From a bacterium (GTDB lineage: Bacteria; Blakebacterota; Blakebacteria; Blakebacterales; Blakebacteraceae), in the NCBI GenBank assembly GCA_025774615.1, contig JALGVQ010000001.1, positions 1-37,641 on the forward strand: a stretch of 37,641 bases of DNA, read 5' to 3'. The first letter of the stretch is position 1. Every line of letters begins with the position of its first letter. This document shows, one piece after another, positions 2,436 through 7,016 of the stretch. A program made the translations under genes and the position numbers. Below the pieces are notes generated by a model, which did not search any database, was not told the origin of the DNA, and saw nothing but the letters and a program-made list of their open reading frames with translations.

Positions 2436-2590
2436 ATACTACCGTCTCATAGCTTGTTATTAAAGCTGGTCACTATTCGACATATGGTGGGCCTGGAACG
2501 AGGGTAGATGGACCGTCGAGCGAGAATACATAGACGAGGCAACCTCGTTTCCGCAGCAGAGTGCACCCTGGCCCGGGTGCATTTTTTATT
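2436..2590 (+). ncRNA. Candidate intergenic small RNA or structured leader ending in an intrinsic terminator
   Basis: Roughly 150-nt non-coding gap with a TTGACA -35-like box at 2430-2435, an ACGAGG-CAA-CCTCGT hairpin and a terminator-like hairpin with T-run. No convincing -10 and no recognised family. Confidence 0.3.
2562..2590 (+). terminator. Rho-independent terminator
   Basis: TGCACCC-TGGCCC-GGGTGCA stem-loop followed directly by TTTTTTATTT. Confidence 0.75.
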
Positions 2591-2610
2591 TGTGGGAAGG
2601 GGGGATCTCA

Positions 2611-3720
2611 TTGGCATTGCCTGCTGAGATATATGCGGCTCTGAATGACCGCTACCCGTTCTCATCTGCCTACGAGTGGGACAACAGTGGCTGGCAGGTG
2701 ATGTCTGGCAGGGAGGTCGAGAGGTGCCTTTTCGCCCTCGACCCATCCCCGGAAGCCCTCAAGCGGGCAATCGATCAGGATGCCCAGCTCATCGTCACCC
2801 ACCATCCTCTCATTCTTCCATCCATTTCAGCCATCGATACTACAACTGTTCAGGGCTCTATCGCGAAGCTGCTCCTTGTTTCCGATATCGGACTCCTTGC
2901 CGCTCATACAAACGCTGATCGCCAGATCGATGGAATCAGTGGAGCACTGGCAGATCTGATCGGGCTTGAGGAACAGCAGATCCTGGCACCGGACGAGCAG
3001 GGCACCTTCTACAAGCTGGTCACCTTTGTACCCGATAATTATACGGAGGTGCTGCGTGCCGGACTCGGAGCGGCCGGCGCCGGTGTGATCGGGAACTATG
3101 AGGAATGCAGCTTTACGATCGCGGGTATCGGATCGTATCGGCCAACATCAGGCGCTCGACCACTCGTGGGCGAAGTCGGACAGATGGAGCATGTGAATGA
3201 ACAGCGCCTGGAGATGCTGGTACCCGGAGCGGCAGTTGACCAGGTCATCGAGGCTCTGAAGCTCCATCATCCTTACGATGAAGTGGCGTTCGATCTTTTC
3301 CAGACGTTCGGACAGGGGGGTGCACTCGGCTCCGGTGTCATCGGTGTCCTGCCTGAACCGGCGGAGACCATGGACGTTCTCGCGAGCGTGAAAGAAGTAT
3401 TCGGGGGGATAGACCTGCAGGTGGCCGGACCTGAAGAAGGTGAGGTGCAGCTGGTCGCCGTTGCCGGCGGCAGCACATCGAACCTGCTGGCAGTTGCCGC
3501 GGCCCGCGGTGCCCAGCTCTTCATCGGAGGCGACCTGAAATACCATGATATCATGGATGCGGCGGGTTCGATGGTGTGTGTGGACGCCGGACACAGAGCA
3601 ACAGAACAACCGGGAGTCGCACGACTGGCAGATGTCGTCCAACGCGCTGCGGCCCGCAATCACTGGGAGCTTGAAGTGGAAGTGTTTCTGGAGGATGCGG
3701 CAGTGAGCCGAGTCTTCTGA
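2611..3720 (+). CDS. Nif3-like dinuclear metal center protein (YbgI/YqfO type, with middle insert domain)
   Basis: DNSGWQV, LIVTHHPLI, AAHTNAD and C-terminal GGDLKYHDIMDAAGSMVCVDAGHRATEQPG motifs. TTG at 2611 is preceded by the SD-like GGAAGGGGGG; the listed ORF opens at 2590. Confidence 0.88.
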   Translation: MALPAEIYAALNDRYPFSSAYEWDNSGWQVMSGREVERCLFALDPSPEALKRAIDQDAQLIVTHHPLILPSISAIDTTTVQGSIAKLLLVSDIGLLAAHTNADRQIDGISGALADLIGLEEQQILAPDEQGTFYKLVTFVPDNYTEVLRAGLGAAGAGVIGNYEECSFTIAGIGSYRPTSGARPLVGEVGQMEHVNEQRLEMLVPGAAVDQVIEALKLHHPYDEVAFDLFQTFGQGGALGSGVIGVLPEPAETMDVLASVKEVFGGIDLQVAGPEEGEVQLVAVAGGSTSNLLAVAAARGAQLFIGGDLKYHDIMDAAGSMVCVDAGHRATEQPGVARLADVVQRAAARNHWELEVEVFLEDAAVSRVF

Positions 3721-3759: not shown

Positions 3760-4479
3760 ATGCGCGAACAACTCACTGAGTTGGCCAGACTGCAGGAAAT
3801 AGATGACCAGCTGGCAAAGTTGGAACGATCGAAAGGCGATTATCCGCAGAGGATAGATGAACTTGAATCTGAACTGACGAGACGTGTGCAGCTTCAGCAG
3901 GGCATGGAGGAAGAGGAGAAGGACCTCCAGAAGGAGCAGCGGAACCTGGAACGCCAGATCAAGGATCATCAGGCCAGGGTCGCCAAACTCCAGGATCGTC
4001 TGGGCGAGGTGAAGACGAACAAGGAGTGGGACGCACTTCAGAAGGAGATGGATGCCGCCAAGGGGGAGCTGTCAGGCGTGGAAGACCATCTGCTCGAAAT
4101 CATGGAGAAGATCGAGGGAGCAGGAGATGATCCTGAGACCGATGGTGAAGAGCTCGATGATTTCAAGCCTCACGCTGAAGCCGAGATCAAGGATCTGAAA
4201 GTAAAACTGAGCGGCGTCGATTCCAAGATGGCCAGGATCAGAAGTGAGCGGGACGCTCTGACGGTACATCTGGATGACGGCCTCAAGCGTATCTACAACA
4301 GGGTCAAGGAAGGTAAACAGGGCACAGCGGTCGTACCGGTTGTCCGGGGTGCCTGTGGGGGCTGCTACAATCGCATTCCACCTCAGACCATCACCGAGAT
4401 CCGAAGAGCCGAGCGGCCGATCACCTGTGAGAACTGCGGACGCATCATGTTGTGGTTCGGTGAGGATGAGGGATCGTGA
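3760..4479 (+). CDS. C4-type zinc ribbon / coiled-coil protein (DUF164 type)
   Basis: Long coiled coil followed by CGGCYNRIPPQTITEIRRAERPITCENCGRIMLW. Confidence 0.88.
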   Translation: MREQLTELARLQEIDDQLAKLERSKGDYPQRIDELESELTRRVQLQQGMEEEEKDLQKEQRNLERQIKDHQARVAKLQDRLGEVKTNKEWDALQKEMDAAKGELSGVEDHLLEIMEKIEGAGDDPETDGEELDDFKPHAEAEIKDLKVKLSGVDSKMARIRSERDALTVHLDDGLKRIYNRVKEGKQGTAVVPVVRGACGGCYNRIPPQTITEIRRAERPITCENCGRIMLWFGEDEGS

Positions 4480-4916
4480 CGACCGGGGGAACGCAGGTAT
4501 CGGCATGGGTTGATGGTGGAGCCCGGGGGAATCCGGGACATGCCGGATTTGGTGTACTCATCACGCTGGATGGTGTCGGTGAGATATACAGGCGGGCTTC
4601 CTATCTCGGTGAGACGACCAACAATCAGGCCGAATATCGCGCTCTGATCCACTGTTTACAGGCGCTGGAGGAGATGGGCCTCAGCAATGGTGTCATCTAT
4701 TCCGATTCTGAATTACTGGTGAAACACCTCTCGGGCGAGTATCGTGTAAAGAATCAGCAGTTGAAGCCTCTCTATGATGACGCTGTCGAGAGGCTGAAGC
4801 GGCTGGATGGAATAAGCGTGAAACATGTCCGCCGGGAGATGAATGTCGAAGCTGACAGACTCGCTAACGCGGGAATCGACTGGGGACTGGCAGAAATTGA
4901 GGAGACGGCCGGGTGA
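4476..4916 (+). CDS. RNase HI-like (reverse-transcriptase-like RNase H fold) protein
   Basis: WVDGGARGNPGHAGFGVLI, TNNQAEYRALI, YSDSELLVKHL, RREMNVEADRLAN (D-E-D-D pattern). GTG start overlaps the upstream stop (GTGA). Confidence 0.88.
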   Translation: MTTGGTQVSAWVDGGARGNPGHAGFGVLITLDGVGEIYRRASYLGETTNNQAEYRALIHCLQALEEMGLSNGVIYSDSELLVKHLSGEYRVKNQQLKPLYDDAVERLKRLDGISVKHVRREMNVEADRLANAGIDWGLAEIEETAG

Positions 4917-5268
4917 TCACGCGTTTCCTCCTTCGGGAGGGAGACGTGAGGAAAGTCCGGACTCCACAGGACAGGATGCTGGGTAACTCCCAGGCGGGGT
5001 GACCCGACGGAAAGTGCCACAGAAAATAAACCGCCAGCCTTCGGGCAGGTAAGGGTGAAAAGGTGGGGTAAGAGCCCACCGCCGTTCCGGGCGATCGGAC
5101 GGGCACGGCAAACCCCATCCGGAGCAAGGTCAAATAGGGGAGCAGAGGTGGTCCGCCTCACTATGACTCCCGGGTAGGCCGCAGGAGGCGTCGGGTAACC
5201 GGCGTCCCAGACAGATGATCGCCGCCGACCCTCGGGTCGGTACAGAATCCGGCTTACAGGCCGTCTCC
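4901..5268 (+). ncRNA. rnpB: RNase P RNA, bacterial class A
   Basis: GAGGAAAGTCCGGACTCC, ACAGAAAATAAACCGCC, GGTGGGGTAAGAGCCCACCG, AGGTCAAATAGGGG, CCCGGGTAGGCCGC, AGATGATCGCC, ACAGAATCCGGCTTA. P1 GGAGACGGCC (4901-4910) pairs perfectly with GGCCGTCTCC (5259-5268). P2 GGTGATCA (4912-4919) pairs with TGATCGCC. Confidence 0.96.
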
Positions 5269-5309
5269 CTGTTATTACCAGATCGATATGGTGGAGGTAC
5301 AAGGCGTAC

Positions 5310-7016
5310 GTGAGCTACCAATGGCAGATCCAGGAACCGGCACCTGCAGAGGCCGTCAGAGATCTCGCCGGCCAGATCGACCTCAGCCCTGAAATTCTTT
5401 CAATCCTCTACCAGCGCGGTCATGTATCGATTGCCGCGTTGGACGAGTTCCTCACTCCCGATCTGAGCAGTGGGCACGATCCTTTCCTGATGCACGGCAT
5501 GGATATTGCGGTCGACAGGATCCAGGGAGCTCTGGATGCAGAGGAACGGATACGTGTGCATGGTGACTATGATGTCGACGGTGTTACAGCCGCGGCACTG
5601 CTCGTGCGCATTCTACGCCTCCTCGGTATCGAAACCGACGCGCGCATTCCCCACCGGACTTCCGATGGTTACGGCCTCAGCATGGAGGCTGTAGAACAGG
5701 CAGCTGATGATGGCATTTCCCTGATTATAACCGTCGATTGCGGGATCAGTGCCATCCCGGAGGTAGAGAGAGCAGGAGAGCTTGATATTGATGTGATCGT
5801 GACCGATCACCACAAACCAGGCCCTCAGGTACCGCACGCCGTTGCGGTTCTCAATCCCCACCAGAATGACTGCTCCTATCCCTTTACCGACCTGTGCGGT
5901 GTCGGGATTGCCTACAAACTGGCATGCGCGCTCAACCCAGCAGGGACAGAATCCTCCCTCCTTGAATACCTCGATCTCGTCGCGCTCGGTACGACAGCCG
6001 ATGTCGTACCGTTAAAAGGGGAGAACCGTGTATTCGTGAAATACGGACTCCCCCAGTTGGCCAGAACGAGATGGCCCGGCCTGAAGGCGCTCATCGACCG
6101 GGTCGGCCTGAAGGGGCACCAGGTGAGCGCGGGAGAGGCGGTCTTTTCACTCGCTCCACGTATCAATGCCGCCGGCCGTATGGGCGATGCTCGTGACGCC
6201 TTTGATCTTCTGCTCACCGACAACGAATTTGAAGGCGCCGAACTGGCTATGCGCCTCGACGACTACAACAAAGAACGCCGGCTTGCTGACAGGAGCACCC
6301 TGCAGAGCGCTGAGGAGCTGCTGGATGCTGAGGATGCCCTGGATGATCGGCACTCACTGGTGCTCTGCGCTGAGGACTGGCACCCGGGGGTGATCGGTAT
6401 TGTGGCAAGCCGTCTGGTTGAACGCTACCACCTGCCGACGGTTCTGGTAGCAATGGACGGAGATGAGGGGAGAGGCAGCGCACGGAGTATCGAAGGATTC
6501 GATCTGTATAATGCCCTTGTTGAGTGCGCCGAACACCTGGTGGAATTCGGTGGGCATCCGCGGGCGGCAGGTCTCTGCATAACAAGAGAGAATTTCGATC
6601 AATTTTCCGAGGCGTTCGATACTATAGCGCGCAACAAATTACAGGAATGCGATATAGAGCCATCTATTAAAGTAGATTGTGAGATTAATGCTGACAATCT
6701 GGATACCGTTTTTCTCGGTGAACTGAAATTGCTGGAGCCGTTCGGTGCCGGGAACCGCCGCCCGACGCTCCTCCTGAGAAAAGCACAGGTCCTCGGTTCC
6801 CCAAAGAGAGTGGGCGGGGATGGCGCGCACCTCAAGTTCATGGTGGACATCGGAAATGGTAACGGAGTCGATGTTATAGGATTCAACCTTGGTGACCGGA
6901 TCGATGACCTTGCAGCCGGTGCGATCGACCTGGTTTTCGCCTTTGAAGAGAACGAGTTCAGAGGTGTTCGCCGCGCCCAGATCAGATTGAAGGACATGCG
7001 CCCCGCCACTCCTTGA
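5310..7016 (+). CDS. recJ: Single-stranded-DNA-specific exonuclease RecJ
   Basis: DHH motifs HGDYDVDGVTAAALL and VTDHHKPG, plus GGHPRAAG (DHHA1). GTG start with upstream GGTGGAGG. Confidence 0.93.
   Translation: MSYQWQIQEPAPAEAVRDLAGQIDLSPEILSILYQRGHVSIAALDEFLTPDLSSGHDPFLMHGMDIAVDRIQGALDAEERIRVHGDYDVDGVTAAALLVRILRLLGIETDARIPHRTSDGYGLSMEAVEQAADDGISLIITVDCGISAIPEVERAGELDIDVIVTDHHKPGPQVPHAVAVLNPHQNDCSYPFTDLCGVGIAYKLACALNPAGTESSLLEYLDLVALGTTADVVPLKGENRVFVKYGLPQLARTRWPGLKALIDRVGLKGHQVSAGEAVFSLAPRINAAGRMGDARDAFDLLLTDNEFEGAELAMRLDDYNKERRLADRSTLQSAEELLDAEDALDDRHSLVLCAEDWHPGVIGIVASRLVERYHLPTVLVAMDGDEGRGSARSIEGFDLYNALVECAEHLVEFGGHPRAAGLCITRENFDQFSEAFDTIARNKLQECDIEPSIKVDCEINADNLDTVFLGELKLLEPFGAGNRRPTLLLRKAQVLGSPKRVGGDGAHLKFMVDIGNGNGVDVIGFNLGDRIDDLAAGAIDLVFAFEENEFRGVRRAQIRLKDMRPATP

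Follow-up and report, generated by a model that had tools for sequence, protein, structure and literature searches.

The RNase P RNA gene rnpB begins inside the coding sequence of the RNase HI-type gene rnhA in the 37,641-nt stretch of bacterial DNA analyzed here (the window): the last five codons and the stop codon of rnhA are also the opening bases of the ribozyme, comprising the 5' strand of helix P1 and the start of helix P2. We consider it likely that this arrangement reflects tight packing of rnpB behind rnhA, with a stop codon supplied by P2, an overlap dominated by the RNA, and probable transcriptional read-through. According to this explanation, rnpB, the last gene in an old order of zinc-ribbon gene, rnhA and rnpB, would have been packed tightly against rnhA, which would have lost its own stop codon and would now end at the one provided by the ribozyme helix. 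The RNase H domain ends before the shared bases, and the C-terminal tail of the protein would take whatever the ribozyme dictates.

The ribozyme gene and the bases it shares with rnhA

The Rfam covariance model RF00010 matched the forward strand of the window over model positions 1-367, with an E-value of 2.6e-103 and a score above the gathering score of 100 bits (Table 1). This is the only RF00010 copy returned by a covariance-model search of the whole genome, the assembly of which is fragmented and 82% complete. The conserved core segments of class A (GAGGAAAGUCC..., ACAGAA...CGGCUUA) and the closing helices P1 and P2 are all present in the alignment; by these features the gene is an ordinary class A RNase P RNA gene, with a predicted activity in tRNA 5' maturation. 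Since the match is this strong, the complementarity of the two P1 strands is not a chance 10-bp match. A preliminary description of this DNA had placed the start of rnpB within the end of rnhA, and its coordinates were right: the covariance model sets the 5' end of the RNA at 4901, not downstream of 4916. The P1 helix it had proposed is reproduced by the alignment, with all ten pairs Watson-Crick. The P2 helix, which it had drawn from 4912 to 4919, is recovered over 4912-4918 including the stop codon, as seven pairs of which one is a U.G wobble at the T of that codon, but the further pair A4919-T5216, although possible, is not used by the covariance model.

Table 1. Features of the window around the junction of rnhA and rnpB.
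Feature	Positions	Strand	Evidence or remark
DUF34/NIF3 gene, opens the same-strand run	2590..3720	+	Pfam DUF34_NIF3, E 9.7e-60
Coiled-coil / C4 zinc-ribbon gene (CT398-like), conserved neighbour	3760..4479	+	Pfam CT398_CC, Zn_ribbon_9
RNase HI-type gene rnhA, 146 aa, GTG start, TGA stop	4476..4916	+	ORF; Pfam RVT_3, RNase_H
rnpB, class A bacterial RNase P RNA	4901..5272	+	RF00010, 317.4 bits, full length
Overlap of coding sequence and ribozyme, GGAGACGGCCGGGTGA, 16 nt	4901..4916	+	ORF end against RF00010 start
P1 helix, 5' strand (last rnhA codons)	4901..4910	+	Pairs with 5259-5268
P2 helix, 5' strand, includes rnhA stop TGA (4914-4916)	4912..4918	+	Covariance-model alignment
P2 helix, 3' strand	5217..5223	+	Covariance-model alignment
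P1 helix, 3' strand	5259..5268	+	Covariance-model alignment
recJ, 37 nt past the RNase P RNA match	5310..7016	+	Pfam DHH, DHHA1, RecJ_OB

The rnhA product matches the Pfam families RVT_3 (E = 1e-20; 74.3 bits, cut-off 21.6) and RNase_H (E = 7.6e-12; 46.0 bits, cut-off 25.8). Four genomes of the family are in the database, the window genome and three others (G001, G002 and G003), and rnhA and rnpB share exactly 16 nt in all three that hold the junction. These are the window genome, its congener G001 (locus L212), whose contig ends within rnpB, and G003 (loci L213/L008), in which the rnhA stop is TAA. The remaining genome, G002, is 72% complete and yielded neither an RNase H nor an RNase P match, so that it counts neither for nor against the overlap.

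Between the window and G003, 14 of the 16 shared bases are identical, compared with 21 of the 40 nt of rnhA that precede them, and both differences are compensated on the partner strand. In P1, A4905 is replaced by G together with U5264 by C, which turns an A-U pair into a G-C pair and the codon from Thr to Ala. In P2, the change of G4915 to A is accompanied by that of C5220 to U, and the stop codon UGA becomes UAA; at the same helix, G5221 to A converts the U.G wobble of the stop codon into a U-A pair. Complete RNAs from the family number two, and the case for covariation accordingly stands on few events. The C-terminal tails of rnhA in the three genomes read EETAG, EETAG and KEAAG, beyond the RNase H domain.

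On this comparison, the nucleotides of the overlap serve both a protein gene and a ribozyme, and the dual use is real and conserved. RNA structure is, by the same evidence, the stronger constraint on the 16 shared bases, because the protein tail is not conserved, and the protein constraint is weak, given that the tail lies outside the RNase H domain and that one of the compensated changes alters an amino acid. The dual constraint put forward in the preliminary description thus holds for the ribozyme, with its compensated substitutions, and carries little weight for the protein.

Gene order and overlaps among bacteria

Our census of rnpB comprised 130 loci from many families, mostly best-scoring RF00010 matches, which are neither random nor independent, some of the genomes being related. 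Of the 130 loci, 43 have rnhA as their immediate same-strand neighbour upstream, 57 have a zinc-ribbon-like gene upstream, and 62 have one or the other. In 13 of the 130, the RNase H stop codon is located 7 nt or more within rnpB, and in 19 it is between -15 and +110 nt relative to the start of the RNA. A second sample consisted of 80 named RNase H loci, and may omit the window's own relatives; about 20 of these have an Rfam-confirmed rnpB at most 250 nt downstream on the same strand, on contigs whose labels include Chloroflexi, Deltaproteobacteria, Nitrospirae, Ignavibacteria, Margulisiibacteriota, Omnitrophica and Latescibacterota. By these counts, the order zinc-ribbon gene, rnhA, rnpB is widespread; overlaps with rnpB arose repeatedly, with different lengths and different upstream genes. 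Conservation in relatives, to which the preliminary description had looked, holds in the three genomes of the window's family that contain the junction; in other phyla, the gene and rnpB are often apart. In the open-licence literature we found no description of rnhA-rnpB linkage or of overlap with rnpB, an absence that is weak evidence.

The length of the rnhA/rnpB overlap ranges from 2 to 107 nt across loci. One family has an overlap of 75 nt in four genomes and values of -18 and -67 in two further members, and a second family has overlaps of 79, 79, 31 and 31 nt. In four census genomes (L007, L014, L054, L122) and a Latescibacterota contig (L138), the reading frame crosses P1, P2, P3 and the 5' strand of P4, and in the four deep-overlap loci that were aligned it stops in loop L8 or L9. 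At L214-L217, L007, L220 and L138, RNase H frames enter rnpB by 71-79 nt and stop at a UAA around loop L8; these frames translate the 5' strand of the ribozyme core and are kept within families. Genes other than rnhA also enter rnpB, namely those for RsfS (L004, L062), an EamA transporter (L103) and zinc-ribbon proteins (L005, L052, L127). At L004, L062, L103 and L031, a set that includes RsfS, the EamA transporter and a 130-codon frame, the frame runs 71-83 nt into rnpB and ends in an EESPxxTxQ-like tail. Unrelated proteins gain a similar tail (...EESPGSTGQG...) because the conserved ribozyme core is read in one frame.

Overlap geometry and partner are therefore not conserved beyond close relatives, as both the length and the upstream gene vary. 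In each of the overlapping loci examined, P1 keeps 7 or more paired positions, and usually 9-11. Among the 87 rnpB loci without rnhA upstream, 17 have a stop codon at RNA positions 14-16, which indicates that P2 often supplies a ready-made stop. These observations fit a process of compaction in which genes would repeatedly have lost their own stop and captured one present in rnpB.

Transcription of rnpB and competing explanations

The genes for DUF34/NIF3, the zinc-ribbon protein, rnhA, rnpB, recJ and an acyl-CoA dehydrogenase form a same-strand series, separated by gaps of less than 45 nt or overlapping. The zinc-ribbon gene and rnhA share four bases (GTGA, 4476-4479), like translationally coupled genes. 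Immediately before the DUF34/NIF3 gene, at 2558-2585, there is a strong terminator-like hairpin followed by a T-rich stretch, which is likely the edge of a transcription unit. A consensus scan of the + strand gave no terminator match between 2585 and 8301, the nearest being those at 2558-2585 and 8301; there is none in 4300-5500, and hence none between rnhA and rnpB or between rnpB and recJ. Since the genes from DUF34/NIF3 to recJ share a strand, are closely spaced or overlapping, and have no recognised terminator between them, read-through is marginally the more probable course.

With co-transcription and processing of this kind, some or all of the RNase P RNA would be cut out of the rnhA mRNA, to which we assign an even chance or marginally better. 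Cleavage at 4901 would strip the stop codon from the upstream rnhA message, and one transcript would give either a complete rnhA message or a mature ribozyme, not both after cleavage. The preliminary description had argued that a transcript carrying both genes must choose between ribosome transit to the stop and folding of P1 and P2. The deduction is sound for a single full-length transcript, should one be made, but transcription reaches the 3' strand of P1 about 350 nt further on, so that leading ribosomes would have time to finish.

The most serious competing explanation, whose probability we place somewhat short of one half, is that rnpB is transcribed independently from its own promoter within the rnhA coding sequence, in which case the sharing exists at the DNA level only and no transcript has to choose. 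A -10-like hexamer, defined by agreement at 5 or more of 6 positions, stands just ahead of rnpB in 36 of the 111 loci that neither overlap nor abut, made up of 8 of the 24 in which rnhA is farther away and 28 of the 87 that lack it. Among the 19 loci that overlap or abut, 1 has such a hexamer (one-sided Fisher p ~0.01). The presence of this box directly upstream of about a third of free-standing rnpB genes, compared with 6% of control windows, speaks for a dedicated promoter as such, but the overlapping loci as a group are without -10 enrichment, which suggests that many overlapping rnpB genes have no promoter at the usual place.

Individual overlapping loci do carry good -10 elements within the upstream coding sequence, namely TATAAT in L122, TAGAAT in L062 and TATATAA in L031, and the one in L062, where RsfS overlaps rnpB, stands at the right distance for rnpB. 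The rnhA gene of the window may well contain a promoter of this sort too. In the family with the 75-nt overlap (L214, L219), TATAAT occurs inside the 3' end of rnhA in one member. In the sister species L219, where the two genes are separated, the rnhA stop TAA lies inside a TTATAAT placed as an rnpB -10 box, and stop and promoter may share bases. Against an independent promoter in the window's own family, no -10-like hexamer is conserved near the rnpB 5' end across the three family genomes. A sigma-70 consensus scan of the window returned promoter-like sites no more often than in shuffles anywhere; such a scan is without power here, and its failure to find a promoter is thus not evidence of absence.

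A broader form of the processing explanation, which we regard as improbable, would hold that across many phyla the mRNA of the upstream neighbour is the source from which RNase P RNA matures. Ribosomes would end inside P1/P2 or, in some families, would first translate the 5' strand of the catalytic core and end in L8, and ribozyme supply and upstream translation would be mutually exclusive for each transcript, thereby setting RNase P levels.

Slightly harder still to credit is a selected regulatory device, in which ribosome transit to the stop would be set against P1/P2 folding in a reciprocal control of RNase H translation and RNase P maturation. The preliminary description had called a coupling of the two genes in one transcript attractive as a regulatory or processing arrangement, and both the identical overlap length in three family members and the widespread rnhA-rnpB linkage favor a regulatory device. 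However, the three are close relatives in which the equal length may be inherited, lengths change freely elsewhere, both from family to family and within the two families with deep overlaps, and the upstream gene that overlaps can be a zinc-ribbon, RsfS or EamA gene. This variety of lengths and upstream genes argues against an RNase H-specific switch, and a regulatory coupling of RNase H to RNase P is not supported. Lastly, a mis-assembly or sequencing frameshift extending the RNase H frame into rnpB, as might be feared in a fragmented assembly that is 82% complete, was rejected as extremely improbable, given that three separately assembled genomes agree on the same 16-nt overlap with intact frames and that the changes between genomes are structure-compatible.

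Relation to known systems

The probable read-through that we favor has a precedent in the SA1279 (gpsB)-rnpB unit of S. aureus, where the RNase P RNA derives partly from a long, processed transcript that begins ahead of the neighbouring protein gene, with a further contribution from a possible start site at the mature end (PMC3937233). According to the same authors, P1 protects the 5' end and forms only once the whole RNA has been made (PMC3937233). The window resembles that unit in having no terminator match between rnhA and rnpB; in S. aureus, however, the gpsB reading frame ends before the RNA and gives no P1 or P2 strand, whereas rnhA gives both. The stable RNA MalH of E. coli, one of a class of mRNA-derived small RNAs, arises from the malG mRNA, and its 5' part consists of the end of the coding sequence and the stop codon (PMC8081044). 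Both RNAs include the stop of the upstream gene, but MalH is a regulatory sRNA and the window RNA a highly structured ribozyme that is essential. Free-standing class A rnpB genes with their own -10 box belong to the same family and have the same P1/P2 architecture as the window gene, but share no coding nucleotides. Short overlaps, for example of 1 and 4 nt, between consecutive same-strand genes are known (PMC10666635), and represent a compact operon packing of the kind found at the 4-nt zinc-ribbon/rnhA junction of the window. Such overlaps join two reading frames, whereas the bases shared by rnhA and rnpB are held by base pairing.

At this junction a stop codon doubles as a base-paired element of an essential ribozyme, which makes it a clean natural example, and compensated changes are seen between relatives. 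The recurrent zinc-ribbon/rnhA/rnpB linkage and the shared ribozyme-encoded tails amount to natural replicates of an encounter between ribosome traffic and RNA folding, and the same replicates bear on whether rnpB expression can do without its own promoter. They also carry a warning for annotation, since rnpB sequence is the source of some C-terminal protein tails, ...EESPGSTGQG among them.
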